From assembly GCA_947625125.1 (NCBI GenBank), contig CANQNF010000027.1, positions 1 to 36,716 of the forward strand: 36,716 nucleotides of DNA, in the 5' to 3' direction. Below the pieces are notes generated by a model. The model was not told the DNA's origin. It ran no database searches and saw only the letters and a program-made list of their open reading frames with translations. This DNA is from an uncultured Clostridia bacterium. Its GTDB lineage: Bacteria > Bacillota > Clostridia > Oscillospirales > Ruminococcaceae. Position 1 is the first letter of the stretch; every line of letters starts with the position of its first letter. Of this stretch, positions 496 to 31,716 are shown piece after piece. A program made the position numbers and the translations under genes.

Positions 496-1232
496 TGAAA
501 GGAATAGAAAATAAAGTTATCGTTATTACCGGCGCGTCATCCGGTATCGGAGAGGCAACCGCAAAAAAACTCGCGGAGGGCGGTGCGAAGGTCGTACTCT
601 CCGCACGGCGTGAGGACAGGCTGAAAAAGCTGGCCCTTGAGATTGGCGATAACGCGGCGTATTTCAAATCTGACGTATCCAGTGCCGAAGATATGAAGGC
701 TTTGATTGCCATGGCAAAAGAGAAGTTCGGACGAGTGGACGTTCTCTTTGCCAACGCCGGAGTTATGCCGGGCAGCAATATGTCAGAACTCAAGACCCGC
801 GACTGGATGAGCATGGTGAACATCAACATTGTGGGCGTTCTCAATTCCATAGCGGCGGTGCTGCCGGAGTTTACAGCACAAAAAAGCGGACATATCCTTG
901 TCACATCTTCGGTTGCCGGTACGAGATCCGTTCCCGGCAATGCGGTTTATTCCGGCACGAAACACTTTGTCCGGGCTATGCTGGATTCCTTCCGTGCCGA
1001 GTCCGTCATGGAGGGAACAAATATCCGCACCACCGTCATTTACCCCGGAGCGATCAAAACGGAGCTTTTGAATACGATTGCACCGTCGGAGACAAAGAAG
1101 ATGGTGGAAAAATTTTATGAGGAGGTCGGCCTGGAGCCGGATGTGATCGCGAACGCCGTCCTCTATGCGATTTCCCAGCCCGATCATGTGGACGTTTCGG
1201 ATATCATCGTGCGTCCGAGCCGCGAGAGCTGA
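495..1232 (+). CDS. Short-chain dehydrogenase/reductase (SDR)
   Basis: This 245-residue protein is a classical cytosolic SDR. It has the Rossmann glycine motif TGASSGIG at residues 12-19, NAGV at 87-90, and the catalytic Ser139, Tyr152 and Lys156 (YSGTK). The length matches the family. It should oxidise or reduce an alcohol/carbonyl with NAD(P). Arg38-Arg39 after the second strand suggests NADP preference (inference). The gene overlaps the upstream aldo/keto reductase by one base and is followed 18 bases later by an alcohol dehydrogenase, so a three-enzyme redox operon is likely. The substrate is unknown. Confidence 0.93.
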   Translation: MKGIENKVIVITGASSGIGEATAKKLAEGGAKVVLSARREDRLKKLALEIGDNAAYFKSDVSSAEDMKALIAMAKEKFGRVDVLFANAGVMPGSNMSELKTRDWMSMVNINIVGVLNSIAAVLPEFTAQKSGHILVTSSVAGTRSVPGNAVYSGTKHFVRAMLDSFRAESVMEGTNIRTTVIYPGAIKTELLNTIAPSETKKMVEKFYEEVGLEPDVIANAVLYAISQPDHVDVSDIIVRPSRES

Positions 1233-1250
1233 TTATAGAAGGAGAAATAT

Positions 1251-2408
1251 ATGAACGCATTTACCTATTCCTATCCCATAACGGTTCATTTTGGGGAGAA
1301 AGCCGCTGCGAAAAATCTCCCCGCCGAGCTTGCAAAAGTCGGCAAAAACGTCCTGCTCGCCTACGGCGGCGGGTCGATAAAGCATAACGGGATTTATAAT
1401 GAACTTATTGAAATTTTGCAGGCTGCCGGCAAGACCGTCACCGAGTTTTCGGGGATAATGTCGAACCCGACCTACGCCAAGGTTCAGGAGGGCGCGCGGC
1501 TTGCAAAGGATAATCACATTGACTTTATTTTGGCGGTCGGCGGCGGCAGCGTCATTGACTGCTGCAAGGTCGTGTCTGCTCAGGCGAAAATCGAGGCTGA
1601 TTTGTGGGAAATGGAGACCGTCGCGCACAAAAATCCGACCGAATTTATCCCGATGGGCGCGGTCGTCACGGCATTCGGCACGGGCGCAGAGATGAACAAC
1701 GGCGCAGTCATCACGAACACCGAAAAGCGGGTCAAAGGCGCGCTCTGGGGCGCGTATTACGACTTCGCGATTTTAGACCCCGCGTACACGATGACGATGC
1801 CGATGAGCCAGGTTATTTCGGGATCATTTGACGCGCTTTCGCACTGCATGGAGACCTATATGGGCAGCCCGCGAGAGCCCGATATTTCGGACTCTATCAA
1901 TGAAGCGGTGCAGCGGAGTATCATCAAAAATCTTCGCAAAACGCTTGAAAATCCGCAGGATATTAAGGCCCGCAGCGAGCTTTTATGGGCGGCGGCGATG
2001 GGCGAAAACGGCATCTTAAAAATCGGCAAAACGACCGATTTTCAGGCGCATATGTTAGAACATCAGTTAGGCGCGTACACCGACTGCAACCACGGGCAGG
2101 GGCTGGCGGTGATCCACCCGCACCTCTACCGCCACATGCTTCCCGAAGCGGCGGCGCAGTTTGCAAGACTTGCTCAAAATGTCTGGGGAATCAATCCCGC
2201 CGGCAAGACTGAAAATGAGCTTGCAAACGCCTTTGTCGACGCGCTCGCGGACTTCATCAAGGAGGTCGGACTGCCGACGAATTTCGCCGAAATGGGCATA
2301 AAAGAAGCCGACTTCAAGGCGATCGCGGGCAGCACCGTTCTGACCGCAGGCTGCTGCAAAAAATTCACGAAAGAGGAGCTTCGCGAGGTACTCGAGGAGT
2401 GCAGATGA
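1251..2408 (+). CDS. Iron-containing alcohol dehydrogenase (YqhD/butanol dehydrogenase-like)
   Basis: The 385-residue product belongs to the group III metal-dependent alcohol dehydrogenases. It shows GGGSVID (97-103) for nucleotide binding, TAFGTGAEM, and a metal site built from Asp194, His198 (ALSHCME), His267 (AHMLEH) and His281 (NHGQG). Family members interconvert aldehydes and alcohols with NAD(P)H. Resemblance is closest to the YqhD/BDH group, judged by eye from the N-terminus (YSYPITVHFGE) and length. A ribosome binding site (aaggag) precedes the ATG. The stop overlaps the start of the downstream membrane protein (ATGA), which points to translational coupling. Confidence 0.93.
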   Translation: MNAFTYSYPITVHFGEKAAAKNLPAELAKVGKNVLLAYGGGSIKHNGIYNELIEILQAAGKTVTEFSGIMSNPTYAKVQEGARLAKDNHIDFILAVGGGSVIDCCKVVSAQAKIEADLWEMETVAHKNPTEFIPMGAVVTAFGTGAEMNNGAVITNTEKRVKGALWGAYYDFAILDPAYTMTMPMSQVISGSFDALSHCMETYMGSPREPDISDSINEAVQRSIIKNLRKTLENPQDIKARSELLWAAAMGENGILKIGKTTDFQAHMLEHQLGAYTDCNHGQGLAVIHPHLYRHMLPEAAAQFARLAQNVWGINPAGKTENELANAFVDALADFIKEVGLPTNFAEMGIKEADFKAIAGSTVLTAGCCKKFTKEELREVLEECR

Positions 2409-3094
2409 CCCCGAAGCAGCTTCTCAAAATCGCCGTCGACCTGCTCATGACCGCCATGCTGCTCCTTTTGATGGCGTATTCGCTCGTCGGCGAGGCGGCG
2501 CATGAGTGGCTCGGCGTGGGAATTTTCCTGCTTTTTTTGCTGCACCATTTTTTGAATAAAAATTGGTACGAGTCCCTCTTTCGCGGGAAATATCCGCCGA
2601 TTCGCATACTTCAAACGGTGATTGATTTGCTCGTGCTTCTATGCATGACAGGCTCGATGATTAGCGGGATTTTGCTGTCGCGATATGTGTTTCGGCTGGA
2701 CATTCACCGCTTCAGCACCGCCCTCCAAACGGTTCATATGCTCTCGGCGTACTGGGGATTTGCGCTCCTGTCGCTGCACCTCGGGCTGCACTGGGGCGGC
2801 ATAATGGGAATGGCAAAAAGTCTCGCGAAGAAGTCGTCGAAAATTCGGAAACAGGCGCTTCGAGGCGTGGCGTTTTTGATCGCCGCATATGGCGCGTATG
2901 CGTTTGTGAAGCGCGATTTCGGGAATTATATGCTGCTGCGGTATCATTTCGTTTTCTTCGGCGACGAGCCGCTCGCCCTGTTCCTGCTCGACTATGCTGC
3001 AATCATGGGGCTGTTCGTCTGGGCGGGGTATTATCTTGCCAAGGCAATGCGAAAAAGCAAGGCAAGGCAACCCGAAAATAATTTTAAGAGGTAA
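2405..3094 (+). CDS. Polytopic membrane protein, DUF4405-like
   Basis: The 229-residue protein has four or five hydrophobic helices (about residues 8-27, 35-49, 68-90, 105-125 and near the C-terminus) and conserved-looking histidines inside them (LLHHFLNKNW, VHMLSAYWGFALLSLHLGLHW). This is the pattern of the DUF4405 / cytochrome-b-like membrane family, which may bind haem or take part in electron transfer (inference). An upstream in-frame GTG at 2399 is possible, but the GAGGAG site places the ATG at 2405 as the better start, overlapping the dehydrogenase stop. It is the last host gene before the mobile DNA. Confidence 0.75.
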   Translation: MTPKQLLKIAVDLLMTAMLLLLMAYSLVGEAAHEWLGVGIFLLFLLHHFLNKNWYESLFRGKYPPIRILQTVIDLLVLLCMTGSMISGILLSRYVFRLDIHRFSTALQTVHMLSAYWGFALLSLHLGLHWGGIMGMAKSLAKKSSKIRKQALRGVAFLIAAYGAYAFVKRDFGNYMLLRYHFVFFGDEPLALFLLDYAAIMGLFVWAGYYLAKAMRKSKARQPENNFKR

Positions 3095-3173
3095 AAATAC
3101 AGCGCACTGCCGAAAAGCGGCGCGCGGTTTTTGTGAAACATCGCCCTGTCCGCTCTTGCAGGTGGGATCATTT

Positions 3174-3506
3174 TTAACATTTTGGAGTTTCCACGGCTTT
3201 GAAAAGCAGCTTCCACACCTCGTCCATTCTCTTTCGCAGCTCCGCAACATCTTCGGAATAAACGCGGTCGGTGGTGTTGATTCGCTTGCAAATCTGATTG
3301 ATGTTGACCCCAATTTTGTTGACTTCGGCAGCAAGTTTCCGCTGCTCCGAGTAGTCAACTTTTATGATATAACCGTCAATCAGCATCTTCCTTACATACG
3401 CTCCGAAGTTGCGAGTTCCGAGGATTTTCATCTTCTATTCTATGAGGTTTTTCTTATTTTCATCGACCCATAGCTTAAGCTGAATTGCTCTTTTTCTCTC
3501 TGCCAT
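3174..3506 (-). pseudogene. mobC: MobC mobilisation protein, interrupted by an in-frame amber stop
   Basis: Reading leftward from an ATG at 3506 with a good upstream site (AAAGGAAAA), the frame encodes 23 residues starting MAERKRAIQLKLW, then TAG at 3435-3437, then continues in the same frame with LGTRNFGAYVRKMLIDGY and VNKIGVNINQICKRIN to the stop at 3174. This is the whole 110-codon layout of a MobC relaxosome accessory protein, including the N-I-NQI helix. A single C-to-T change (CAG to TAG) explains the break. The ATG at 3431, just after the stop, could restart translation. No relaxase gene follows on the left, so the mobilisation module is truncated as well as broken. Confidence 0.8.
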
Positions 3507-5157: not shown

Positions 5158-6159
5158 CTAATTTGTTATCAGTTCAATGTTCAATCTTAATTCTTCTATT
5201 GTTTTATGAGTATATACCCGTTCGCCCGTTCCGGCTGATTTATGCCCCATAAGCCTATCAATACAAACCTTATTCGCCCCGGCTGAATCAAGCCGTGATC
5301 TGAACGTGTGGCGGCATTCGTGCGGGGTATGGTGCATATTTAATTTCTTCATGAGGTCAGCCCAAATTATTCTGTATTGAGCTTGGGAAAGCTTCTTTCC
5401 TTGATACTCAAACAAATATCCATTTTTTGATTTTTCAAACCGCCTTTGAACAATTTCAAAAATCTTTGAGTGTATCGGAACTATTCGATTTTTTCCCGCC
5501 GCTGTTTTTGTACCGCCCGTTATTGTCTTTGCGTTCAAATCCACATCGGATATTTTCAAATCAAGCATTTCAGAAATTCTGAATCCGGTATACAAGAAGA
5601 ACAAAAGAGAATCAGCCCATTCTAATTTTTGATTTTCCCAAATAAGCCTTATTTCTTCATCGGTAAAAACTTCTTTGGTCGTTTCCGGTATTGGATCGGA
5701 CGTTAGCAGCGTCGAACATTGTTTTGAAATTATATCCAATTCAAGGGCGAAACGGTCAAGATGCCCCCATAAATTTTTAATCGCCCCTTGCGTGGAATAT
5801 CCGCATCCGCAGCTATCAATACAATCTTGCATTTGATAAGGCTTAATTTGATTGTATTTGACAGAAGATAGATGTTTACAATGACGATAAGCAGCTTTCA
5901 AAGAAGAACGGTTCGACTTTCCCAATTTTGAAGCGCGTTTTTCTTCCCAAAGATCGAATAATTCTTGTAGTGTTATTTTGTCCGTTTCAATATCCCACGG
6001 CTTTTTGTTGTATTGTGCAAGAAGAATAAGCCCTTCTTCTTTAGTCGCGGTATATCCTATAGGCTTTTGCCGCCCGGAAAGCCCTTCTTTGACGATCCAC
6101 GGTCTACGCCTTTTGCCGGATAGTTTTGTAACAGTACCGTATTTATTTGGATTTCTCAT
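5158..6159 (-). CDS. int: Phage tyrosine-recombinase integrase
   Basis: The 333-residue protein has the standard three parts of a phage integrase: a basic arm-binding N-terminus (residues 1-55, with GTVTKLSGKRRRPWIV), a SAM-like core-binding domain (about 60-150) and a catalytic domain (about 160-330). Catalytic residues are Arg194 (YTGFRISE), Lys218 or Lys223, His280 and Arg283 (HECRH), His306 (LMGHKS) and the nucleophile Tyr316 (RVYTH). It should catalyse integration and excision between attP and attB. The ATG is preceded by AAGGCGG. The gene sits at the left end of the prophage, reading outward, with its stop next to the probable att site. The chromosomal target appears to have been inside another mobile element. 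Confidence 0.95.
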   Translation of the reverse strand: MRNPNKYGTVTKLSGKRRRPWIVKEGLSGRQKPIGYTATKEEGLILLAQYNKKPWDIETDKITLQELFDLWEEKRASKLGKSNRSSLKAAYRHCKHLSSVKYNQIKPYQMQDCIDSCGCGYSTQGAIKNLWGHLDRFALELDIISKQCSTLLTSDPIPETTKEVFTDEEIRLIWENQKLEWADSLLFFLYTGFRISEMLDLKISDVDLNAKTITGGTKTAAGKNRIVPIHSKIFEIVQRRFEKSKNGYLFEYQGKKLSQAQYRIIWADLMKKLNMHHTPHECRHTFRSRLDSAGANKVCIDRLMGHKSAGTGERVYTHKTIEELRLNIELITN

Positions 6160-6957: not shown

Positions 6958-7386
6958 TTAGTTGTCCCGATACTTTTCTGATTTTAACATTTGCTTCATT
7001 TCGCCGCGAATCTCGCACAAATCTGATTCGTCAAGAGATAGAAGCATTGTAACGGTATCGGTAAGAGATTTGCCAAAACTCGCTTGAAATACTTCAAGCG
7101 CAGAAACTTTTGATTGAATTGATTCGGTATCAAGCTTCTGATCGAATTCTTCCCATCCCATAAGCCTTCCGACTGGCACACAAAGAGCGTCGGCAAGCGC
7201 TGAAATTTTTGAAGCAGGAAGATCGCTTTTACCCGCTTCGATTTTGTTAATCGAAGAACGGGCATATTCAGACGTATAACCAACAAGGTTGGCTAATTCT
7301 TCTTGCGACATTCCCCTTTCGGTTCTGTATTGCCTTACTCTTGCGCCCAATTCCTTCAAAAAGTCTGTTTTGTTGGCTGAACTCAT
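6958..7386 (-). CDS. XRE-family phage repressor
   Basis: The 142-residue protein begins with a Cro/CI-type helix-turn-helix (about residues 10-66: LGARVRQYRTERGMSQEEL... INKIEAGKSDLPASKISALADAL). It ends in a helical, acidic tail (about 85-142) that may mediate dimerisation. No peptidase (LexA-like) domain is visible, so it is not a self-cleaving CI; inactivation must come from elsewhere. The ATG is preceded by AAAGGGGGTGAAC. It is transcribed leftward from a promoter at 7412-7440, opposite to the early operon, which is the usual position of the lysogeny repressor. Confidence 0.88.
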   Translation of the reverse strand: MSSANKTDFLKELGARVRQYRTERGMSQEELANLVGYTSEYARSSINKIEAGKSDLPASKISALADALCVPVGRLMGWEEFDQKLDTESIQSKVSALEVFQASFGKSLTDTVTMLLSLDESDLCEIRGEMKQMLKSEKYRDN

Positions 7387-21558: not shown

Positions 21559-21768
21559 ATGGATAGAAATTCATTTTACAATAGTGAAGGCTATCCCGAT
21601 CCAACGGCTTATTACGGTACGAAAGAGATAATTAAAGAAGAAACCGAAGCAGAGAAAAGAGCCGGTGAGCTGATACGGGTATTAAAATTCATTATTCGTT
21701 CATGCGGGTTTGAACTGATTGAACGAATAGCAATCAAAGATAAAAAGACAGGAAGGGAATTCAGATGA
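21559..21768 (+). CDS. Hypothetical protein, 69 residues
   Basis: The ATG at 21559 follows TGAAGGGAAAATAC. The product (MDRNSFYNSEGYPDPTAYYGTKEIIKEETEAEKRAGELIRVLKFIIRSCGF...) is helical and unassigned. Its stop overlaps the start of the ADP-ribosylglycohydrolase gene (ATGA), so the two proteins are likely made in equal amounts and may act together. Confidence 0.65.
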   Translation: MDRNSFYNSEGYPDPTAYYGTKEIIKEETEAEKRAGELIRVLKFIIRSCGFELIERIAIKDKKTGREFR

Positions 21769-22682
21769 AAGATAAATTATACAGTGGAATCATGGGTTTG
21801 GTGTGCGGCGACGCGCTCGGTGTACCGTTTGAATTTTCGGAAAGATCGCCGAAAAGCGTATATCCGTTGATTGATATGACGGGGTACGGCGCACACAATC
21901 AGCCGCTTGGTACATGGTCGGACGATAGCGCGCTTACTCTTGCGACAATTCAGAGTATCGTTGATAAAGAAAGAATCGACTGTAACGATATTATGAAGAA
22001 TTTCTTTGAGTGGTTCAGGTTCGGGAGATTCAGCGCCAACGGGGAAGTTTTTGATATTGGCGCTACTACTTTTCGGGCGATAGATAATTATATTCACGGG
22101 TGTGATGCGCTTGATTGCGGCGGTACAGACGTAAACGACAACGGGAACGGTTCTTTGATGCGGATTCTTCCGCTTGCTTATGTTGATTGTACCGAACAGG
22201 ACATAATCAATGTTTCGTCGGTAACTCATGCACACGAAATATCAACAACCGCTTGCCGAATTTATGTGGCTTTTGCGAAAAAACTGTTAAATGACGTTCA
22301 TCCGAACCGGGCGTTACTGGAAATCAAGAACGAACTTAAATACAATGAAGCGATCTTCAGTCAGCTTTTCAATGTTCCGTATTTCAAACGTGCGGCGATT
22401 AAGTCAACCGGTTATGTTGTCGCCACATTGGAAGCGGCGATCTGGTGCTTCATGCGTACATCTTCCTACAGAAAATGCGTTTCGGCGGCGGTACGTCTGG
22501 GCGGTGATACTGATACAATAGCCGCAATCGCGGGCGGGCTTGCCGGAATATATTACGGGGTAGACGGTGAAGCCGGAATCCCTTCGGAATGGATTAAGCT
22601 TGTTGACCGATATTCAATAGTAGATAAACTTTGTAAACGGTTCAAGTTAAGCCCGTTAGTTCAAGATAAGTTCAAGTTGTAA
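21765..22682 (+). CDS. ADP-ribosylglycohydrolase (DraG/ARH family)
   Basis: The 305-residue protein is a clear member of the ADP-ribosyl-glycohydrolase family, with GLVCGDALGVPFE (11-23), WSDDS (51-55), NGNGSLMRI (126-134), THAHE (154-158) and GGDTDT (246-251). The aspartates in SDDS and DTD bind two metal ions. Known relatives remove ADP-ribose from arginine (DraG, ARH1) or from other sites. The C-terminal 15 residues are encoded by GGTTCAAG-type repeats that continue into the intergenic region. The gene lies just before the late genes, one of which (26770-29295) has an ADP-ribosyltransferase domain, so an erase partner is a reasonable idea. Confidence 0.92.
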   Translation: MKDKLYSGIMGLVCGDALGVPFEFSERSPKSVYPLIDMTGYGAHNQPLGTWSDDSALTLATIQSIVDKERIDCNDIMKNFFEWFRFGRFSANGEVFDIGATTFRAIDNYIHGCDALDCGGTDVNDNGNGSLMRILPLAYVDCTEQDIINVSSVTHAHEISTTACRIYVAFAKKLLNDVHPNRALLEIKNELKYNEAIFSQLFNVPYFKRAAIKSTGYVVATLEAAIWCFMRTSSYRKCVSAAVRLGGDTDTIAAIAGGLAGIYYGVDGEAGIPSEWIKLVDRYSIVDKLCKRFKLSPLVQDKFKL

Positions 22683-22905
22683 CAGTTAAAACTTGAACCG
22701 TTATAAATCGTTTATTTATGCGGATTTGTGAAGTGCGGTTCAAGATGGTTCAAGTTAAAATGAAGTTTTTAAGAAATCATAAAAACAAAATACTGTAAAA
22801 TTCTTTATTTTTGAAAAATTATATATAGAGAAATTACAAACTTGAACTTGAACCGATGTGATGAAAACCTTTTAAGTAAACGCATTTAGAGCGGTTCAAG
22901 TTAAA
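22655..22905. repeat. Cluster of GGTTCAAG/CTTGAACC motifs (right copy)
   Basis: The motif or a close variant occurs in the last codons of the hydrolase gene (about 22638-22680) and again at 22692, 22737, 22747, several sites around 22840-22855 and 22893. It includes the right arm of the 34-bp inverted repeat. The rest is AT-rich and non-coding. It resembles the left cluster at 6763-6951 in motif content and in having both orientations. Confidence 0.75.
22736..22769 (+). repeat. 34-bp perfect inverted repeat, right arm
   Basis: Exact reverse complement of 6855-6888, 15.8 kb away. It begins CGGTTCAAGATGGTTCAAG and ends GAAGTTTT. It lies between the last early gene and the sigma-like late regulator. 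Confidence 0.9.
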
Positions 22906-22923
22906 TGAAAGGAAGTTGTACCG

Positions 22924-23367
22924 GTGAAAGCAAAAGATTATTTGAAACAGTTAGAACTGATAGATTTGAAAATTTCACAAAAAATAAGCGAATTATCAGA
23001 TTTGCGTTCTAAAGCATATAGCATAAAAAGCGTGAATTTTAGTAGCGACGTTTCGCATTCTTCCGGAGCGAATGAAGCAAGCTTTGTTAAGCCCCTTAGT
23101 AATGCGCTGATTCTTGAAAATGAAATCAGTATAGAATTAAATGATTTTATTCAACTAAAACATAAAATAATCAATGAAATTCAAGCGCTGAAAGACACGC
23201 GCTATATCAATATTCTATATAAGAGATATGTTCAATTCATGAAGCTTGAAGATATTGCTTCCGCTATGAATTATACATATCAGTACACGATTGAGCTTCA
23301 CGGTAAAGCTTTACAAGCTTTTCAAATTACCTATAAAAACCTATTGAAAACTTATATAGATTCGTGA
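22924..23367 (+). CDS. Sigma-70 region 4-like late regulator (ArpU/DUF1492-like)
   Basis: The 147-residue protein has a coiled-coil N-terminus (residues 1-40) and a helix-turn-helix at the end (LKDTRYINILYKRYVQFMKLEDIASAMNYTYQYTIELHGKALQAF), which is the pattern of sigma region 4 proteins such as ArpU and DUF1492, used by Gram-positive phages to switch on late genes. The GTG start follows AGGAAGTTGTACCG. It lies directly upstream of the terminase, as expected, and is separated from it by a terminator and a large hairpin. The GGTTCAAG cluster is its leader. Confidence 0.75.
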   Translation: MKAKDYLKQLELIDLKISQKISELSDLRSKAYSIKSVNFSSDVSHSSGANEASFVKPLSNALILENEISIELNDFIQLKHKIINEIQALKDTRYINILYKRYVQFMKLEDIASAMNYTYQYTIELHGKALQAFQITYKNLLKTYIDS

Positions 23368-23388
23368 TAAAATGTTACCATAAAATTT

Positions 23389-23416
23389 CGGCGCGGAATT
23401 CTACGCCGATTTTTTA
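23389..23416 (+). terminator. Intrinsic terminator after the late regulator
   Basis: TCGGCG (23389-23394) pairs with CGCCGA (23404-23409) around CGGAATTCTA, followed by TTTTTTA. It would end early transcription before the late operon, unless read through. Confidence 0.8.
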
Positions 23417-23427
23417 TTTCCTCTTTG

Positions 23428-23494
23428 CCCCCGGAAAGATGCTCATAGCCGTGTTACTTTCGTCTTAATGCGGTGAACTCCTGCTTTCCGGGGG
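23428..23494 (+). other. Long-range hairpin upstream of terS, 11-bp perfect arms
   Basis: CCCCCGGAAAG (23428-23438) is the exact reverse complement of CTTTCCGGGGG (23484-23494), enclosing 45 bases that may fold further (GCCG...CGGT). It sits between the early terminator and the terminase small subunit gene, where packaging sites (cos/pac) or late-transcript leaders are found. No tRNA shape fits. Function unknown. Confidence 0.6.
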
Positions 23495-23524
23495 TGTTAA
23501 AAACTATTGAAGGGCGGTGAAGTC

Positions 23525-23953
23525 ATGGGAAGATTGGGAACAGGTAAGTTCAGAAGCGCTAAACAAATGATTGACGCTTGGAATGAATATAAATCCGAAT
23601 GTGACAATAAGTTTGTTCTTACGCATGAGTTCAGCGCAAAGAACAGTGAATTTGTCAGCAAAGAACTTCGTCGTTCAGTCACATATACCAAAAAAGGATT
23701 TGCGCTTTTTTGCGGAATGACCGAACAGAATTTCTATGCGACTTATGGTAATAATCCAAAATTTGAGCCGGTTATCGCGCTCATAGGTGAAGAATGCGAA
23801 ATTGATGCCCGTGAAAAGTTTGAATTGGGCGTTATTGATCCGAAGCTTGCGGGATTATGGATGTCAAATTACGGGTATACAACAAAAACTGATTCAAATA
23901 TTTCCGGATCAGTACCCGTTGTAATATCCGGGGGCGATGCCCTTGAAGATTAA
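23525..23953 (+). CDS. terS: Terminase small subunit
   Basis: The 142-residue protein (MGRLGTGKFRSAKQMIDAWNEYKSECDN... GMTEQNFYATYGNNPKFEPVIALIGEECEIDAREKFELGVIDPKLAGLWMSNYGYTTK) reads as a small terminase subunit: a helix-turn-helix for packaging-site recognition, a helical oligomerisation core, then a C-terminal tail. The ATG at 23525 follows AAGGGCGGTGAAGTC. Its stop overlaps the large subunit start by 17 bases, typical of a terminase pair. Confidence 0.85.
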   Translation: MGRLGTGKFRSAKQMIDAWNEYKSECDNKFVLTHEFSAKNSEFVSKELRRSVTYTKKGFALFCGMTEQNFYATYGNNPKFEPVIALIGEECEIDAREKFELGVIDPKLAGLWMSNYGYTTKTDSNISGSVPVVISGGDALED

Positions 23954-25205
23954 ATCCGCGAATAATATATATCTTCCCGACTATGTCGGCAAGGGCTACG
24001 GGTCGTTTTGGCGTTGGCGCGGAAGATACCGCGTGTGTAAAGGCAGCCGCGCAAGTAAAAAATCCAAAACAACCGCTTTGTGGTATATCGTTAATATAAT
24101 AAACTACGAAGACGCGAATCTTTTGGTAGTGCGAAAGGTTTTCCGAACACTGAAAGATTCGTGTTTCACCGAACTTAAATGGGCGATCAACCGTCTGGGC
24201 GTTGCGGAATTTTGGGAAATCAAAGAATCCCCGCTTGAAATGACATATATTCCGACAGGGCAAAAAATCTATTTTCGCGGGCTTGATGATCCGCTGAAAG
24301 TTACTTCAATCACAGTTGAACACGGGTATTTGTGTTGGATGTGGATTGAAGAAGCCTACGAAATAGGCGACGAAAACGATTTTAATATGCTCGATGAATC
24401 CATACGCGGCGCGATCCCGCCCGGAACGGGCTTGTTCAAACAAATCACGCTTACATTCAACCCGTGGAATGAACGGCATTGGTTAAAGGCGCGGTTTTTC
24501 GATAATCCGGATTCTGAAACGTTGGCTATGACAACCAATTATCTTTGTAATGAATGGTTGGACGAAGCCGATTTGAAGGTTTTTGAAACGATGCGGATAA
24601 ACAACCCCCGGCGTTATCGCGTCGCCGGTCTGGGCGAATGGGGCGTTGTTGAAGGGCTTATTTTTGAAAATTGGGAAGAAAAAGCGTTTGATATTGAAGC
24701 GGTTCGCAAAATGTCAAGCGTCAGATCGGCGTTCGGGCTTGATTTCGGCTATACAAACGATCCTTCCGCTTTCTTTTGCGGCTTAATCGACGTTACCGCA
24801 AAAACGCTATGGGTATTTGATGAAATATACAAGCGCGGCATGAGTAACGAAGCGATTGCCGAAGAAATCACAAAAGCCGGCTACGCCAAAGAAAAAATAA
24901 GCGCCGATTCATCCGAACCGAAATCCATTGACCGCTTGCGTGATCTGGGATTAAATCGTATTCACCGGGCAAGAAAAGGCAAAGACAGCGTAAACAACGG
25001 AATTGATTATATTCAGGGTTATCATATAATCGTTCACCCGCGATGTGTGAACTTCCTTACAGAAATAAGTCAATATTCGTGGGAAAAGGACACTAAAACC
25101 GGCAAACCGCTGAATATTCCGGTAGATGATTTTAACCATCTTATGGACGCTATGAGATATGCGTTAGAAGATTTTAGCCGAAGTGCAGCGTTCAGTTTTG
25201 ACTAA
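23937..25205 (+). CDS. terL: Terminase large subunit (PBSX/SPP1 type)
   Basis: The 422-residue protein has the packaging ATPase and the headful nuclease. The Walker A is GSRASKKSKT (36-45), Walker B WMWIEEA (134-140), and the RNase H-like nuclease carries Asp269 (GLDFGYTNDP), Asp324 (SADSSEP) and Asp404 (HLMDAMRYA). The order of genes (TerS, TerL, portal, MuF) matches SPP1-like headful packagers. It pumps DNA into the procapsid through the portal. Confidence 0.95.
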   Translation: MPLKIKSANNIYLPDYVGKGYGSFWRWRGRYRVCKGSRASKKSKTTALWYIVNIINYEDANLLVVRKVFRTLKDSCFTELKWAINRLGVAEFWEIKESPLEMTYIPTGQKIYFRGLDDPLKVTSITVEHGYLCWMWIEEAYEIGDENDFNMLDESIRGAIPPGTGLFKQITLTFNPWNERHWLKARFFDNPDSETLAMTTNYLCNEWLDEADLKVFETMRINNPRRYRVAGLGEWGVVEGLIFENWEEKAFDIEAVRKMSSVRSAFGLDFGYTNDPSAFFCGLIDVTAKTLWVFDEIYKRGMSNEAIAEEITKAGYAKEKISADSSEPKSIDRLRDLGLNRIHRARKGKDSVNNGIDYIQGYHIIVHPRCVNFLTEISQYSWEKDTKTGKPLNIPVDDFNHLMDAMRYALEDFSRSAAFSFD

Positions 25206-25222
25206 ATAATAACACATTAGTA

Positions 25223-25261
25223 ACAAAACGCTTTGAAACGTCAATGTTTTGGGCGTTTTGT
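25223..25261 (+). other. Stem-loop between terL and portal
   Basis: ACAAAACGC (25223-25231) pairs perfectly with GCGTTTTGT (25253-25261), followed by GTTTATT. It may be a weak terminator or an RNA-processing site that sets relative levels of terminase and portal. Confidence 0.5.
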
Positions 25262-25294
25262 GTTTATTAAACAATAGAAAGGGGGCAGAAAAGT

Positions 25295-26773
25295 TTGAAT
25301 GTGCTTAACGGATTAGTGAATAAAATTTCTGATCTGATTCTTTACGGGGCAAAAGCCGACATGACTAACAAAGAATTTCTTGAACAGTCAATTCTTCGGT
25401 GGAAAGGTTCGCCGGAAAGGCTTATGCAGATAAAAGGTCAGCTTTATTATCAGAGCGAACACGATATTCTTTCCCGTAAGCGGACTATGATCGGCGAAGA
25501 CGGCAAACTTCAAGTTGTCGAAAACCTTCCAAACAACTTGATTATTGATAATCAGTATACGAAGATGGTAAATCAGAAAACGAATTATCTTCTGGGTCAG
25601 CCGTTTGTATTGGAAAGTGAAAACACACAATACGCCGAACTTCTGAAACAAGTATTCGATAAAAGATTTATGAAAATTTTGAAGAATACCGGTAAATCAG
25701 CGCTGAATCATGGTATAGCTTGGCTGTTCCCGTATTACGATAATGAAGGCGCTTTCCGCTTCCGATTATTCCCCGGCTATGAAATACTTCCGTTCTGGAG
25801 CGATAGCGAACACACCGCGTTGATGGGCGCTATTAGACTTTATCTCGTTGCCGGATATGAAGGAACAAAGCCCGTGATAGTTGAAAAAGTTGAAGTTTTT
25901 GACTTGAACGGCGTACACAAATATATTCTTGATGGAAACGTTCTTATTCCCGATCTGACCGGCGAAGAACAAGATAGCCCGTATGTTTACGCGGGCAAAC
26001 AACCGCTTAATTGGGCGCGGATTCCTCTTATTCCATTCAAATACAACGAACAGGAAATACCGCTTATTAAGCGTGTAAAGCCCTTGCAGGACGGAATCAA
26101 TGTCATGCTTTCGGACTTTGAAAACAATATGCAGGAAGATGCGCGAAATACCATTCTTGTTTTGAAAAATTATGACGGCGAAAATCTTGGGGAATTCCGC
26201 AAAAATCTCGCTACTTTTGGCGCGGTCAAAGTTCGCTATGACGGTGATACAAAAGGCGGCGTTGAAACGCTTGAAATTACCGTAAATTCCGACAATTACA
26301 AGGCTATTGTGGAAATCTTCAAAAAGGCGCTCATTGAAAATGCTATGGGATATGACGCTAAAGATGATCGGCTTTCCGGCAATCCAAACCAAATGAATAT
26401 TCAATCAATGTATTCTGATATTGATTTGGACGCTAACGACATGGAAACGGAATTTCAAGCGGCGTTTGAAGATGTTCTTTGGTTCGTCAATAAACATTTT
26501 GCGAATACCGGGCGCGGAAACTTTGAAAATGAAGACGTTACAATCATATTCAACCGCGATATTCTGATTAACGAAAGTGAAGCGATTGAAAATTGTAAAG
26601 CTTCCGTCGGCATTTTGTCAGATGAAACGATTATTGGTCAACATCCGTGGGTGGACGATCCGCAAAAAGAGCTTGACCGGGTGCAGAAGCAGCGCGAAAA
26701 GGAACAAGAAGCATCTCTTAAAGAATATGATCCGTTTTCTTCAACCCCTCCGAACGGGGGCGCGGGTGAATGA
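25295..26773 (+). CDS. Portal protein (SPP1 gp6-like)
   Basis: The 492-residue protein starts at a TTG after AAAGGGGGC. It has the SPP1/gp6 portal layout: N-terminal clip/wing (FLEQSILRWKGSPERLMQIKGQLYYQ), the TNYLLGQPF block, and the long helix near PLIKRVKPLQDGINVMLSDFENNMQE that lines the channel. The C-terminus ends in a charged coil (KELDRVQKQREKEQE). The 12-subunit ring is the entry gate for DNA. Its stop overlaps the next gene by four bases, so portal and MuF protein are coupled, as in SPP1. Confidence 0.92.
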   Translation: MNVLNGLVNKISDLILYGAKADMTNKEFLEQSILRWKGSPERLMQIKGQLYYQSEHDILSRKRTMIGEDGKLQVVENLPNNLIIDNQYTKMVNQKTNYLLGQPFVLESENTQYAELLKQVFDKRFMKILKNTGKSALNHGIAWLFPYYDNEGAFRFRLFPGYEILPFWSDSEHTALMGAIRLYLVAGYEGTKPVIVEKVEVFDLNGVHKYILDGNVLIPDLTGEEQDSPYVYAGKQPLNWARIPLIPFKYNEQEIPLIKRVKPLQDGINVMLSDFENNMQEDARNTILVLKNYDGENLGEFRKNLATFGAVKVRYDGDTKGGVETLEITVNSDNYKAIVEIFKKALIENAMGYDAKDDRLSGNPNQMNIQSMYSDIDLDANDMETEFQAAFEDVLWFVNKHFANTGRGNFENEDVTIIFNRDILINESEAIENCKASVGILSDETIIGQHPWVDDPQKELDRVQKQREKEQEASLKEYDPFSSTPPNGGAGE

Positions 26774-29295
26774 AAAATTCAGAATACTGGATTCAGCGCT
26801 TCGGTCAGCTTGAAAACGCACAGCATCAGTTAGGCGCGAAAGCCCAAAAGCAGATTGAAGCGATATACCGCGAAGCCCAAAAGCAGATTGAAGGGAAGAT
26901 TTCAACGTGGTATACTCGGTTCGCGAAGAATAACAATATTTCGCTTGCAGAAGCGCGTCAATGGCTTACCGGCAAGGATTTGAAGGAATTCAAGTGGGAT
27001 GTTCAAGAGTATATCAAATATGGCAGCGAACACGCCTTAACCGGTGCTTGGACAAAAGAGCTTGAAAACGCTTCGGCAAAATACCACATTTCAAAGCTTG
27101 AAGCGCTGAAAATCCAAACTCAACAAAGCCTTGAAAGTTTATTTTCAAAGCAAGGCGCGATTATGTCAAGCGCGATGGGGCAAATCTATACTTCCGGATA
27201 TTATCATACCGCGTATGAGCTTCAAAAAGGCTTTAATATCGGGTGGGATATTAGCGGCGTGGATCAGTCGCAGATCGAAAAACTTTTATCGAAGCCGTGG
27301 GCGGTCGATGAATATAATTTTTCTGAAAGGATTTGGCGAAACAAAAACAAGCTTATTTCCGAAGTTCATAATGAATTGACGCGGAATGTTATGCTTGGTG
27401 CTGATCCGCAAAAGGCTATAGACGCAATTGCCCAAAAGATGGGTACTTCAAAAAGTAACGCCGGGCGGCTCGTTATGACGGAAGAAGCGTATTTTAGTTC
27501 TTTATCACAGGGTGATTCATTTAAAGAACTCGGCGTTGAAAAATATGAAATTGTGGCAACTCTTGATTCTCATACTTCCGATATATGCCGAAATCTTGAC
27601 GGGCAACTGTTTGACATGAAAGATTATCAGCCGGGAACTACCGCGCCGCCCTTCCATGTTCGTTGCAGGTCAACCACTGTTCCCCATTTTGATGATAATT
27701 TCGGGCAGATCGGGGAACGTGCGGCAAGAGATGAGGAAACCGGAAAAACGTATTATATCCCGGACGATATGAAATATAAGGAATGGGAAGATACGTTCGT
27801 TAAAGGCGGCGACAAATCCGGCTTTACGGTTATTGATGATGGTTCAACGCTTCATTATAAACACGCTGAACAGGCTGAACCGGAAGCTGAACCGCCGAAA
27901 AAGGTTTATTTGACCGAAAAGAAGCTAAAATCCTTGATTGCTGATGCAGATGTGCAGCTTGAAGATCTGAACAATCAGTTCGGGGGTATAACGCAAGGGT
28001 GGGCGTATGACGAACTTATAAAAAGTTACGGTTCGTTAGATGATGCCTACAGCGGAGCAACCGGAAGCGATTTGGACGATCTGAAAAAGCTAAAAGCCCT
28101 TGAAGTTAAGATTCAAGAGATCGGGAAGCAAAAAGATGAATGGCAACAAAAGCTGAATGAAAAGCTTATTGCCAAACAGAAAAAGGAATTTGCCAAAAAG
28201 CAGCTTGAACTTGAAGCCCAAAAAGCAACGCTTCAACAACAGCTTGATGATTTTGAAATAAAGACTTATTCCGGAATCTGGTACGGCAAGGACGTGAAAA
28301 CGTCTGATTGGAGCGGGCTAAACATTGAAGGCAAGCTTAAATATTATGAAGGTAAGTTCATAACTGAAACCGATCCCGACAAATTGAAGGAATTTCAAGA
28401 ACTTTATCAGAAGGTCAAGGAGCTTGATGCCGAAGGTAAAGCGTACAATGACATTGAAAAAGAAGTCGCTAAAATCGAATCCGAAATTAAGCAGCTTCAA
28501 AAAGACTTGCAAAAGCTTGAAAGCGGTGATATAATTGATAGCGCCGAAGAAGCCTTTACGCAAGCCCGTAAAGATGCGGCTATGTGGGCGAAATCCACAA
28601 AGGAAGCCGATGATCGCTTGCGGCAAGTATGCGGTGATGTTTGGAAAGCAGCGCCGGGCGCGGAAAAAGACGCGATCTTTAACTATACTTCAAGCTACAG
28701 TAAGTTCAATGAACCTTTACGCGGAATTGAATACGGTACAAACGCCTTCAAGGGCGTTGGAAAGATTGATTTTGATACCATAGGCACAAGTTACAGCGGC
28801 TTTAAACGCGGGCAAGTGCGAAAGCAAATTAACGCTATGACTGATATTATCGAAAAATCAAGCTATGATTTTGATATGTGGTTACAGCGCGGTTGTGATT
28901 ATTCCGGCATGGATAAGTTCTTTGAAATCTCTATGTATGATTTACAGAACGCTTCACAAGCTGAATTAGAACAGCTTCTTTTGGGAAAAACCGTTACAGA
29001 TTACGGCTTTTTCAGTTGCGGTGTTTCAAAGGGAAAAGGCTTTTCGCACAAACCAATTATAATGAACGTGTATGCCCCAAAAGGTACAAAAATGATGTAC
29101 GCCGAACCGTTTTCCGCTTTTGGTAACGGTTCGGGGCGCTCATGGAATGGCGTTGATTCGCAATCGTCATTTGGCTATGAAGCCGAAATGATCTTACAGC
29201 AAGGTACAAGTTTTCGTATAACGAAGGTTGAAAAATCGGGCGGTAAACTGTATCTTGATATAGAAGTTATACTACAGAATACCCCGCAAAGGTAG
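26770..29295 (+). CDS. MuF minor capsid protein fused to an arginine-type ADP-ribosyltransferase
   Basis: The 841-residue protein has three parts. Residues 1-380 are the SPP1 gp7/MuF-like minor head protein, with GADPQKAIDAIAQKM, TLDSHTSDICR and the cysteine motif HVRCRSTTVPHF (about 296-307). Residues about 385-600 are a long coiled coil. Residues about 610-841 read as a mono-ADP-ribosyltransferase of the R-S-E class: Arg707 (QRGCDY), an S-rich FFSCGVS (747-753) and Glu804-x-Glu806 (YEAEM), followed by GTSFRITKV. MuF proteins of this type are packed inside the capsid and can be ejected with the DNA, so the enzyme would reach the host at infection. The target is unknown. Confidence 0.88.
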   Translation: MKNSEYWIQRFGQLENAQHQLGAKAQKQIEAIYREAQKQIEGKISTWYTRFAKNNNISLAEARQWLTGKDLKEFKWDVQEYIKYGSEHALTGAWTKELENASAKYHISKLEALKIQTQQSLESLFSKQGAIMSSAMGQIYTSGYYHTAYELQKGFNIGWDISGVDQSQIEKLLSKPWAVDEYNFSERIWRNKNKLISEVHNELTRNVMLGADPQKAIDAIAQKMGTSKSNAGRLVMTEEAYFSSLSQGDSFKELGVEKYEIVATLDSHTSDICRNLDGQLFDMKDYQPGTTAPPFHVRCRSTTVPHFDDNFGQIGERAARDEETGKTYYIPDDMKYKEWEDTFVKGGDKSGFTVIDDGSTLHYKHAEQAEPEAEPPKKVYLTEKKLKSLIADADVQLEDLNNQFGGITQGWAYDELIKSYGSLDDAYSGATGSDLDDLKKLKALEVKIQEIGKQKDEWQQKLNEKLIAKQKKEFAKKQLELEAQKATLQQQLDDFEIKTYSGIWYGKDVKTSDWSGLNIEGKLKYYEGKFITETDPDKLKEFQELYQKVKELDAEGKAYNDIEKEVAKIESEIKQLQKDLQKLESGDIIDSAEEAFTQARKDAAMWAKSTKEADDRLRQVCGDVWKAAPGAEKDAIFNYTSSYSKFNEPLRGIEYGTNAFKGVGKIDFDTIGTSYSGFKRGQVRKQINAMTDIIEKSSYDFDMWLQRGCDYSGMDKFFEISMYDLQNASQAELEQLLLGKTVTDYGFFSCGVSKGKGFSHKPIIMNVYAPKGTKMMYAEPFSAFGNGSGRSWNGVDSQSSFGYEAEMILQQGTSFRITKVEKSGGKLYLDIEVILQNTPQR

Positions 29296-29305
29296 GCGAT
29301 GGAGA

Positions 29306-29548
29306 ATGGATAAAAAGTCGTTGGAAGAACGTCTTGAAAAAGATATTCTTACCGATAATACAAAACTTCCGAAGTATGAACAGTGTAAAACTTGCCAATT
29401 CCGCAAAATGCAGATCGGCAATTCTTTGATTGACGATTACAGAAGAAGTAGTTGCATGATTTTCCGCTATCCTTCAATGAAGCCTATACAATTCTTCGAT
29501 GGTTCGGCTCGATGCGAATTTTACGAACAAGAAAAACGCAAGAAATAA
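29306..29548 (+). CDS. Small cysteine-containing protein, 80 residues
   Basis: The 80-residue protein (MDKKSLEERLEKDILTDNTKLPKYEQCKTCQFRKM...) has four cysteines in a CxxC...C...C arrangement (CKTC, SSCMIF, ARCEFY), suggesting a zinc-binding fold. It starts 10 bases after the MuF-ART gene and ends at a terminator. It could be an immunity or chaperone protein for the toxin-like ART, or an extra head protein. I do not recognise a family. Confidence 0.65.
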   Translation: MDKKSLEERLEKDILTDNTKLPKYEQCKTCQFRKMQIGNSLIDDYRRSSCMIFRYPSMKPIQFFDGSARCEFYEQEKRKK

Positions 29549-29585: not shown

Positions 29586-29719
29586 ATGCTTATTTTTTCT
29601 TCCAACTATGGGTTAAATAGTGAAAACTCGTCTTTTTAGCATTGTAGACGGTAAAGAACAAGATTCATTCGTGGTTCGTCACCCACGGAAAACAACGTAA
29701 TGAAAGGATCGTGAACACT

Positions 29720-30346
29720 ATGACGAAAGAAGATTTAATCAAAATGGGGTTGAGTGAAGAACAGGCTAACAGCGTTATGACTTCTCTTAATGGGGATTTC
29801 GTAACCAAAACAAGGTTTAACGAACTCAATGAAGAACTGAAAACCGCCCGGCAATCAGTCAGCGATCGCGATAAGCAGCTTGAAGAACTGAAAAAGTCGG
29901 CGGGTGACAATCAGGCGCTTGCCACACAAATTACAACCCTACAACAGCAAAACGCCACGCAGAAAACAGAATTTGAAGCTAAATTGGCGGCGCTGAAACT
30001 CGATAACGCCGTTGAACTCGCGCTTACCGGTGCGAAAGCTAAAAATTCAAAGGCTGTAAAAGCTATGCTTGATTTGTCCAAAGTAAAACTTGGTGAAGAT
30101 GGTAAGCTTTCCGGGCTTGATGAACAGCTTGAAGCCTTGAAGAAATCCGATGGGTATATGTTTGAGGTGCAGGAACAGCAGAAACAACAGTTTACCGGAT
30201 TTCAGCCGGGCGCTTCCGGCGTTGTTCCTTCTTCTACACAAGCGGGATATGAAGCCCGCCTTGCGGATGCTCGTAAGAACAACAATCAGTTAGAGGTTAT
30301 CAAGATTAAGCAGGAAGCAGCAACCGAAGGCGTTATTCTTATGTAA
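29720..30346 (+). CDS. Scaffold protein (GP20-like)
   Basis: The 208-residue protein is a typical phage scaffold: a helical coiled-coil core (residues about 30-95: FNELNEELKTARQSVSDRDKQLEELKK), a flexible Gly/Ser/Pro-rich segment near FQPGASGVVPSSTQ and a charged C-terminus (AYEARLADARKNNNQLEVIKIKQEAATEG) that docks to the capsid protein. The ATG at 29720 has GAAAGGATC upstream; a GTG at 29711 is too close to it. It precedes the major capsid gene, as expected. Confidence 0.82.
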   Translation: MTKEDLIKMGLSEEQANSVMTSLNGDFVTKTRFNELNEELKTARQSVSDRDKQLEELKKSAGDNQALATQITTLQQQNATQKTEFEAKLAALKLDNAVELALTGAKAKNSKAVKAMLDLSKVKLGEDGKLSGLDEQLEALKKSDGYMFEVQEQQKQQFTGFQPGASGVVPSSTQAGYEARLADARKNNNQLEVIKIKQEAATEGVILM

Positions 30347-30375: not shown

Positions 30376-31716
30376 ATGCCACAGGTACAGGGTATAGGTA
30401 ACACTTGGAATTTACCCAACTATGCGGGTGAACTCTTTACGGCTGACCCCACGCAGACCCCGTTTCTTTCCATGATCGGCGGTTTAACCGGGGGCAGACA
30501 GACAAACAATTTTGAATTCCCTACAGCGGTTCTTTATGACTTCCCGCCCGCAGGACAGCCGGAAATTTCCGAAATGGATTCCGCAGTTGCCCCGAAAGCG
30601 GCTCATATCGCAAGGGAACAGGAAAAGAACGTTGTTCAGATTCATCAGGAAGTGATTGATCTGACATACGCGAAAATGTCCAACACGGGAAGAATGACCG
30701 GGCTGAATACAGCAGGACAGACGGCGAACCCCGGCGATGAAAAGGCTTGGCAGATTCAACAGAAGCTCGTTAAAATCGCCCGCGACGTTGAATATTCCTT
30801 CCTTCAGGGCAAGTATCAAATCGCGGATTCTGCTACAAAGGCAAATAAAACCCGCGGTATGATCGAACTTTGCACTTCGCCCGCGGGAAATCACATCGCG
30901 GCGGGCGGTGAAGTTCTGGATAAAGATATGCTTAAACAGCTTTTCCGTGATATGGCTGATAACGGCGCATATTTCGGGAAGATGGTTCTGTTTTGCGGCG
31001 CGTATCTTAAACAGGCTATTACCGATCTGTATGCCGAACAGTTCAGGGCGCAGATGCAGACTACACAGAACGTCGGTGGTATGAATATTACCGAAATCGA
31101 AACCGATTTCTTCAAGATGGGCGTTGCTTGGGATCGCTTCATGCCTTCCGACGCTATTCTGATCGCAGATATGGCGCATATCGCCCCCGTTTTTGAAGCC
31201 GTTCCCGGCAAGGGCGTTCTTTTTGAAGAACCGCTTGCAAAGGTCGGCGCATCTGACAGAATTCAGATTTACGGTCAGATCGGTTTAGCGCATGGACCGG
31301 CGTTCCTTCACGGTGCAATCACCGGGCTTAAAGCCGAAGGAACAAAACGTATATATGCGCTCGGCGGTATTCCTTCCGGTACAGTTCTTAATAAGCAGCC
31401 TTCTGATCTTGTTGAGAATATGAAGATAAATGCCGATTGTGAAGTTACCGGCGAATTCAAAAACATCAAAGAAGCGTGGACACAGTTTGGAAAAACCAAC
31501 AATACCGGATATTTCTTCCCGCTTACTTTGAAGCAGAAGGGCGAAAAGCTCACAATCAAGACCAACGGCGATATTCCCGAAAAGACCGTTGACTACCCGG
31601 ACGATCAGAACATCGTTGTCAGACTGACAAAGAAAGCTGATTCCGAAGTAGAAACTTTGGTTGACGGCATTTCGCAGGGCAAATTTACGTTCAGGGGCGC
31701 GAAGTTCGCAGAATAA
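30376..31716 (+). CDS. Major capsid protein with C-terminal extra domain
   Basis: The 446-residue protein reads as a DUF5309/SU10-like HK97-fold major capsid protein (TADPTQTPFLSMIGGL, RTFEFPT-like N-arm, SGNTGRMTG, PVFEAVPGKGVLFEEPLAKVGASDRIQIYGQIGLAHGPAFLHGAITGL). The fold seems to end near residue 330. About 110 residues follow (KQPSDLVENMKINADCEVTGEF... KFTFRGAKFAE), beta-rich, which may be an Ig-like decoration domain displayed on the capsid. The gene has AAAGGTAAGG before the ATG and no overlap with its neighbours. Confidence 0.85.
   Translation: MPQVQGIGNTWNLPNYAGELFTADPTQTPFLSMIGGLTGGRQTNNFEFPTAVLYDFPPAGQPEISEMDSAVAPKAAHIAREQEKNVVQIHQEVIDLTYAKMSNTGRMTGLNTAGQTANPGDEKAWQIQQKLVKIARDVEYSFLQGKYQIADSATKANKTRGMIELCTSPAGNHIAAGGEVLDKDMLKQLFRDMADNGAYFGKMVLFCGAYLKQAITDLYAEQFRAQMQTTQNVGGMNITEIETDFFKMGVAWDRFMPSDAILIADMAHIAPVFEAVPGKGVLFEEPLAKVGASDRIQIYGQIGLAHGPAFLHGAITGLKAEGTKRIYALGGIPSGTVLNKQPSDLVENMKINADCEVTGEFKNIKEAWTQFGKTNNTGYFFPLTLKQKGEKLTIKTNGDIPEKTVDYPDDQNIVVRLTKKADSEVETLVDGISQGKFTFRGAKFAE

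Follow-up and report, generated by a model that had tools for sequence, protein, structure and literature searches.

The 36,716-nucleotide stretch of DNA analyzed here (the window), which is one whole contig (CANQNF010000027.1) of a 3.17-Mb genome of an uncultured Clostridia bacterium, carries a prophage gene for a MuF minor head protein ending in an R-S-E ADP-ribosyltransferase (ART) domain, together with genes for an ADP-ribosylhydrolase (ARH) and for a small four-cysteine protein that we name DS80. Our results favor, with a probability of about 0.78, the reading that these genes constitute a prophage-borne MuF polymorphic ART toxin with an enzymatic and a probable structural immunity partner. 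In hand are domain matches, catalytic residues, a predicted ART fold, the association of the genes across loci, and a fusion of DS80 to the hydrolase. The pairing of a MuF-ART with a hydrolase is not in itself new, as it is present in the Bxa/BAH/Bsi prophage system published in 2024 (PMC11699363). The new parts are the DS80 family, the DS80-hydrolase fusion and the displaced position of the hydrolase gene. The central features of the window are the following.

26770..29295, + strand: MuF minor head protein with C-terminal R-S-E ART, 841 amino acids (PF04233, PF03496, phrog_115 E 2.3e-155)
27361..27678, + strand: MuF domain, residues 198-303 (PF04233 E 2.1e-15, above cut-off)
28654..29265, + strand: ART domain, residues 629-832 (PF03496 ADPrib_exo_Tox E 3.8e-19, above cut-off)
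21765..22682, + strand: ADP-ribosylhydrolase (DraG/ARH fold, Lmo0067/Tri1-like), 305 amino acids, candidate enzymatic immunity (PF03747 E 5.7e-64)
29306..29548, + strand: DS80, 80 amino acids, with C27, C30, C50 and C70; candidate structural immunity (21-row alignment)

The original prediction, made from the letters alone, had read the end of the MuF protein as an R-S-E ART, and its residue numbers proved right: besides the match to PF03496, residues R707, S749 and E804-x-E806 are invariant in 28 of 28 alignment rows, the window included. Residues 519-837 match the Bxa family as well (phrog_16625 'Bxa ADP-ribosyl transferase', E 1.3e-31). The structural comparison agrees with the assignment. 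A predicted model of residues 579-841 (mean pLDDT 91.5, pTM 0.89) has C3-type ARTs as its nearest folds, which occupy ranks 1-31 among the Foldseek matches in the PDB (best E 5.4e-15); rank 32 is the ART chain of a Listeria pair, 8za7_B, with a TM-score of 0.84 by target and 24% identity, and the best match among predicted viral proteins is 'VIP2 [Myoviridae sp. ctCop38]'. Judged from sequence and model, the window protein has both the R-S-E ART fold and the active-site Arg, Ser and Glu, the latter in the ExE form. The ExE motif of ARTs points to arginine as the target residue, and on the strength of this motif the ART of the window would ADP-ribosylate proteins, probably on arginine.

The MuF gene lies in the packaging module of a temperate phage, where its start at 26770 directly follows, and overlaps, the end of the portal gene at 26773. 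Its tail is polymorphic: in one relative (L086) the MuF part is 74% identical to that of the window and the C-terminus is different. The MuF protein of this relative (L086:10001-11911) ends in a part with an HEYGH stretch, which by eye is zinc metallopeptidase-like (Pfam gives MuF alone), and is followed by an open reading frame (ORF) of 60 amino acids. PF04233 matched 7 of the 10 ART proteins that were scanned. The ART carrier of L055 matches Bxa and head-morphogenesis PHROGs, and for those of L016 and L032 no head-protein match was found in Pfam or PHROGs; the latter two (L016:5001-6731, L032:7133-10618) combine ART and DS80 though their N-terminal part has no MuF match in either collection. 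Bacteroides phage Versailles likewise has PF03496 and no PF04233 match. The ART is rare, being present in 1 of 148 host-family genomes (the window's own) and in 2 of 199 genomes of the family of G185, one of these copies with internal stops.

The hydrolase, which had been called a complete DraG/ARH enzyme from the outset, is a complete ADP-ribosylhydrolase by its sequence. PF03747 (ADP_ribosyl_GH) spans residues 8-273 of the 305, all 19 alignment rows, that of the window among them, share E23, D53, D54, H157, D248 and D250, and the ORF is the only PF03747 match in the 3.17-Mb genome. Tre1/Tri1 is reportedly an R-S-E ART toxin with an ADP-ribosyl glycohydrolase as its immunity protein; the NCBIfam model of Tri1 (NF041672) matches the hydrolase with E 2e-49 and 168.3 bits, and since the curated cut-off of 490 is not reached, the hydrolase is a relative of Tri1 and not a member. 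The closest solved relative is Lmo0067 (8za7_A, 219 bits). The catalytic role of the Glu and the metal-ligand roles of the Asp residues are taken from the family and from PMC11699363.

The association of the genes was followed from the ART side, with the ART domain as bait, as a scan of viral contigs with the hydrolase alone as bait had given no matches. The ART-domain scans returned 32 viral records and 18 genome loci; on the level of whole records PF03747 was seen in 10 of the former and 15 of the latter (all except G180, G191 and G197). Because 51 of 148 host-family genomes carry some PF03747, co-occurrence within genomes was set aside and linkage on a contig was used. By this measure an ARH is present on the same contig in 28 of 53 ART loci (counting the window, L087 and L089), and it adjoins the ART gene in 21 of the 28. 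Three layouts were seen. In 7 loci the ARH is upstream (window, L003, L008, L021, L045, where only the tail of the ARH is left at the contig start, L087 and L089); in 15 it comes immediately after the ART in the same orientation; and in 6, the Bacteroidales-type loci, it stands behind the ART and is convergent with it. All six viral records with at least 9 kb upstream and at least 1.3 kb downstream readable carry an ARH, and the 22 viral records without one all fall short of those limits on at least one side; these limits were set after seeing the data and were applied to the viral records, not to the 18 genome loci. Of 195 genomes searched in the family of G184, 13 carry the ART, 12 of these with a hydrolase or part of one behind it and 11 with DS80; 7 of the 13 were already in the first set. 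One locus of this family (L206:154-1095) has the ART end and the hydrolase in one frame of 365 codons by coordinates, with no DS80 match between them, and may be a decayed copy.

A control on a common backbone points in the same direction. The MuF N-terminus (residues 1-345) was used as bait and returned 60 records, 56 of them new. Among these new MuF relatives, in some of which the MuF tail is cut, ART, hydrolase and DS80 appear only in L087 and L089; in the whole records of 50 of the 56, PF03747 likewise occurs only in L087 and L089, exactly the ART carriers. On a quick tree of 69 MuF N-termini, the ART-selected loci among them, ART and DS80 agree in 57 of 57 scorable rows (14/14 carriers, 0/43 non-carriers; Fisher p 1.3e-13, ignoring relatedness). 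ART and hydrolase agree in 25 of 26 (6 of the 7 carriers judged against 0 of 19 non-carriers; p 3e-5), L011 being the exception, so that the co-occurrence on which the original prediction had staked its pairing of MuF-ART and ARH genes is found. If the same requirement of 6 kb of readable sequence is put to carriers and non-carriers alike, the hydrolase is found in 4 of 5 ART carriers versus 0 of 19 non-carriers; L003 and L045, which are positive, have less than 6 kb upstream of MuF and would not count as negatives. DS80 follows the ART in 4 of 4 changes on the tree (sign test p 0.125, the minimum possible for four pairs). The ART-less backbone-mate L086 has other ORFs in the stretch before the regulator gene. 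Given this agreement of presence and absence on one backbone and across three gene orders, the ART and hydrolase genes belong together as far as gene content can tell.

The three layouts correspond to different hydrolases. In a tree of 51 ARH sequences the upstream type forms one clade (100/99; window, L021, L003, L087, L089 and L071, the last being the ARH from the genome of L046), the downstream type and a G189 sequence a second (98/94), and a third (100/100) unites the Bacteroidales-like type with L032 and another G189 sequence. In this midpoint-rooted tree the upstream clade joins cellular ARHs from genomes of the host family with a support of 93/92, which misses the program's star; the set that they form holds one long branch. 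Of eight genomes searched around this clade, seven are without PF03496 and the eighth is that of L046. A single origin of the ARH partner was considered and is the less likely reading, as the upstream type groups with the host-family ARHs and not directly with the downstream type. The ART family has likely recruited an eraser more than once, and such repeated recruitment is itself an argument for function. An eraser accompanies one head-protein ART family in elements from Bacillota, Spirochaetota, Desulfovibrio and Bacteroides, and the differing clades and places of the hydrolase argue for selection for the pairing.

The upstream clade is set apart by its position. Its ARH gene lies about 4 kb upstream of the ART gene and, in all seven loci, comes before the same regulator gene. 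The window's copy shares 4 bp with the small ORF ahead of it; primase and methyltransferase genes lie on its upstream side, and a PHROG transcriptional regulator and the terminase genes follow. A primase gene also precedes the ARH gene in L008 and L089 and a methyltransferase gene in L087, the other loci of this type being cut or not read further upstream. The label 'early gene' that the hydrolase received in the original prediction is purely positional. Promoter-like sites around it number 25 versus 19.4 (sd 4.7) in shuffles, and terminator-like sites 10 versus 10.9; as both are at about shuffle level, the operon timing of the hydrolase is not established.

The original parts list, correct for the ART and the hydrolase, overlooked a third conserved part, the ORF at 29306-29548. 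The four cysteines of DS80 and K59-P60 are invariant in the 21-row alignment, and a profile built from those rows matches behind the ART in 45 of 53 loci. The eight ART loci without a match are six of the Bacteroidales type, L008, whose ART runs off the contig, and L062, in which the copy is interrupted by stops. Outside the Bacteroidales type, this unnamed small family stands behind the toxin almost without exception, and it would be a direct and cheap target for a neutralization assay. DS80 was without a match in Pfam at E 0.01 and in the PDB at E 1, no PHROG improved on E 0.022, and nothing of weight turned up in the phages collection; a metal-binding role is a guess from its cysteines.

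DS80 is a separate gene between ART and hydrolase in the Treponema-type loci (e.g. L047, L049 and L059). In five Desulfovibrio-type loci it forms the N-terminal part of one ORF of 386-395 amino acids with a complete ARH:

L027:10667-11830, DS80-ARH fusion
L050:4966-6126, DS80-ARH fusion
L051:7039-8199, DS80-ARH fusion
L053:10659-11816, DS80-ARH fusion
L054:10651-11835, DS80-ARH fusion

The fusion to the hydrolase in some phages suggests that the two share a purpose and that DS80 would act in the cell in which the eraser acts. Unselected genome searches gave DS80 matches in 3 of 398 and 2 of 394 genomes, namely the window's own (in both searches), one whose contig coordinates make it very probably that of L046, and two orphans. 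One orphan (L177:9325-9561, - strand) adjoins an integrase gene (PF00589) and a CI-type helix-turn-helix gene, about 11 kb from a tape measure gene. No match to the MuF, portal or ART of the window was found in the stretches read around the orphan (L177, L182), which looks as if it sits in a prophage remnant; a copy beside an integrase is as expected of an immunity gene. The second DS80-like orphan (L178:10485-10787) has a GNAT acetyltransferase gene as its neighbor, close to the end of a contig.

The six Bacteroidales-type loci have no DS80 and carry instead another family of small ORFs, on the opposite strand; no locus has both. A profile of that family, built from five rows (L019, L029, L052, L055 and Bacteroides phage Versailles), matches only those six loci of the table, with L026 and L033 scoring exactly as L052, and has no match in the window. 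A K-Y-x-E stretch in the Versailles small ORF resembles K89, Y90 and E92 of Bsi (PMC11699363), a likeness that is no more than suggestive. We considered whether the Bacteroidales small ORF is Bsi; this is not established, as it would rest only on the K-Y-x-E spacing in L185.

Taken as a toxin with two immunity partners, the system could work as follows. Through its MuF half the protein would be built into the phage head, and its R-S-E ART at the C-terminus would act on bacterial proteins. Toxin made during phage production would poison the phage's own factory, and two safeguards would prevent this: the 305-residue hydrolase would strip ADP-ribose from modified proteins, and DS80, by analogy with Bsi, probably binds and blocks the ART. 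From its place before the regulator and packaging genes, the hydrolase is likely made before the late genes and the toxin, so that protection would be provided in advance; it could also be present early after infection. Its position allows, and does not show, erasure of the marks of an injected toxin. Support for this reading comes also from the Listeria structure, in that both halves match the two partners of 8za7. More tentatively, DS80 may silence the ART stoichiometrically during head assembly and the early-region hydrolase limit an injected ART to a short pulse per infection, the Desulfovibrio-type fusion then being a bifunctional binder and eraser.

Of the two readings put forward in the original prediction, protection of the producing cell is the better supported, because the ARH sits beside the ART in 21 of 28 linked cases and because BAH confers immunity to Bxa in E. 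coli (PMC11699363). The other, in which an ART injected at entry marks host proteins and the early hydrolase wipes off the marks later in the same infection, fared less well, and we regard it as a minority explanation. The upstream-type hydrolase does precede the same regulator gene in its seven loci, with primase before it in the window, L008 and L089 and methyltransferase in the window and L087, and the 4-bp overlap with the preceding ORF makes it probable that in the window it is read with early genes; for this clade the timing idea is possible. However, a hydrolase beside the ART, the common arrangement, does not obviously serve early erasure, and ART injection is itself hypothetical. The displaced hydrolase makes both the injection of a MuF toxin and its later undoing by the phage testable. 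It is very improbable that the hydrolase is a counter-defence, undoing the ADP-ribosylation by a host defence ART and unrelated to the phage's own. Phages elsewhere do carry ARHs (45 records in a survey for ARH alone, mostly large Aeromonas, Erwinia, Salmonella and Cronobacter phages and Streptomyces phages), and the nearest host-family cellular ARHs occur in genomes without PF03496 in 7 of 8 searched; yet none of the 19 ART-less backbone-mates carries an ARH, and three ARH clades occur with this one ART family.

DS80 could also be a chaperone or a head-packaging helper of the MuF-ART instead of an immunity protein, which we hold to be doubtful. A helper of this kind could well be encoded immediately after the toxin, as DS80 is in 45 of 53 loci, but DS80 is absent on the same backbone when MuF has other tails (0 of 43), is fused to the hydrolase in five loci, and occurs as an orphan next to an integrase, where neither MuF nor ART was found close by. 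Less plausible still is that the ART acts chiefly on the animal in which the bacterium lives, the kind of target reported for Bxa, and that its partners protect the producer only. The match to the Bxa-family profile (E 1.3e-31), the C3-type ARTs among the nearest solved folds and the origin of some relatives in gut samples (e.g. goat cecum for L045) would fit an animal target, although likeness of fold does not give the target and the head-protein context points to bacteria.

Several results weigh against the toxin-immunity reading, and it should be interpreted with some caution. L011 has ART and DS80 and no ARH in 15.5 kb upstream (169 bases are readable downstream), and L056 has both with 8.9 kb upstream and a long downstream stretch, PF03747 not being found in its genome; on the evidence of these two loci the hydrolase may be dispensable. 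No ARH was found on the contig in 25 of the 53 ART loci, many of which are short. In the phages collection 11 records match the ART, and 5 of 6 checked whole are without PF03747, so more distant ARTs of this kind manage without a hydrolase. Records rather than lineages were counted, and many are near-copies; some of the same loci had also gone into building the profiles. The tree holds 4 independent ART changes, with which a sign test cannot reach 0.05, and the hydrolase follows the ART in 2 of 3 pairs, with no difference in the remaining one. The predicted model of DS80 is poor (pLDDT 55) and gives no confident fold, and DS80-like orphans occur without an ART, one of them (L178) outside any evident phage.

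The claim in the original prediction that the combination is little studied is outdated. In PMC11699363, Bxa is a MuF-ART of a Bacteroides stercoris prophage that is antibacterial in E. coli, is reversed by the hydrolase BAH and is blocked by the small non-enzymatic protein Bsi. The window resembles this system in having a MuF head protein with a C-terminal ART, an ADP-ribosylhydrolase and a putative small partner. It differs in that its hydrolase belongs to another clade, being 22-24% identical to the BAH-like rows (Bacteroidales-type loci, L032), and lies 4 kb upstream, whereas BAH is adjacent to the toxin; its small partner is DS80, and the profile of the Bacteroidales small ORFs has no match there. 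MuF-ART fusions and an ART-ARG pair have also been described in Aeromonas phages (PMC9503650), and in the deposited record of Bacteroides phage Versailles an ART is accompanied by an annotated ARH. ADP-ribosyl glycohydrolases as immunity for R-S-E ART toxins were described in PMC3482391 (Tox-ART-RSE with Imm-ADP-RGHD); the type of toxin and of immunity is that of the window, with delivery there by type II, VI and VII secretion systems (T2SS, T6SS, T7SS) and not by MuF.

MuF toxins as such were defined in 2017 (PMC5576092), where 14% of 191 were putative ARTs and 89.4% were followed by a small ORF. The window shares the MuF domain, the gene order after the portal, the C-terminal toxin and the small ORF (<150 amino acids) behind it; no hydrolase partner is described, and the word glycohydrolase does not occur, in the part of that text at hand. 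Lmo0066/Lmo0067 of Listeria monocytogenes is likewise an ART-ARH pair, known here only by the title of PDB 8za7 ('ART-ARH type toxin effector-immunity protein pair of Listeria monocytogenes'). Lmo0066 matches the window ART by sequence (E 4.3e-4) and by fold; unlike the window protein, its solved chain has 180 residues without a MuF part and may be a fragment. In the literature searched (openly licensed PubMed Central) no paper was found on the Listeria pair, and none on a four-cysteine partner or a displaced hydrolase was among the matches listed, which comprised titles and the beginnings of abstracts.

Judged by its genes for portal, terminase, scaffold, major capsid, integrase, repressor, polymerase, primase and tail sheath, the window is a temperate, probably contractile-tailed prophage. 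Its other features that bear on the argument are these.

5158..6159, - strand: integrase, temperate phage (phrog_1 E 9.8e-48)
6958..7386, - strand: repressor-like regulator (phrog_8 E 1.9e-15)
22924..23367, + strand: transcriptional regulator, between the hydrolase and the packaging genes (phrog_36 E 1.1e-16)
23507..23953, + strand: terminase small subunit (phrog_606 E 2.4e-12; PF16677)
23937..25205, + strand: terminase large subunit (PF04466 E 5.1e-53)
25295..26773, + strand: portal protein, directly before the MuF gene (PF05133 E 6.2e-87)
29711..30346, + strand: capsid scaffolding protein (PF06810 E 6.9e-52)
30376..31716, + strand: major capsid protein (PF17236 E 8.2e-65)

From its place, the regulator at 22924..23367 would control the late genes. 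The G+C content of positions 1-3500 is 52-54%, as against about 39-47% elsewhere in the window, and this higher value suggests that they are host flank before the prophage. Outside the window, three Microbacterium phages (L186, L189 and L190) have the ART behind a head protein, followed by 3-5 small reverse-strand ORFs, in records without PF03747; these small ORFs may be other immunity genes.

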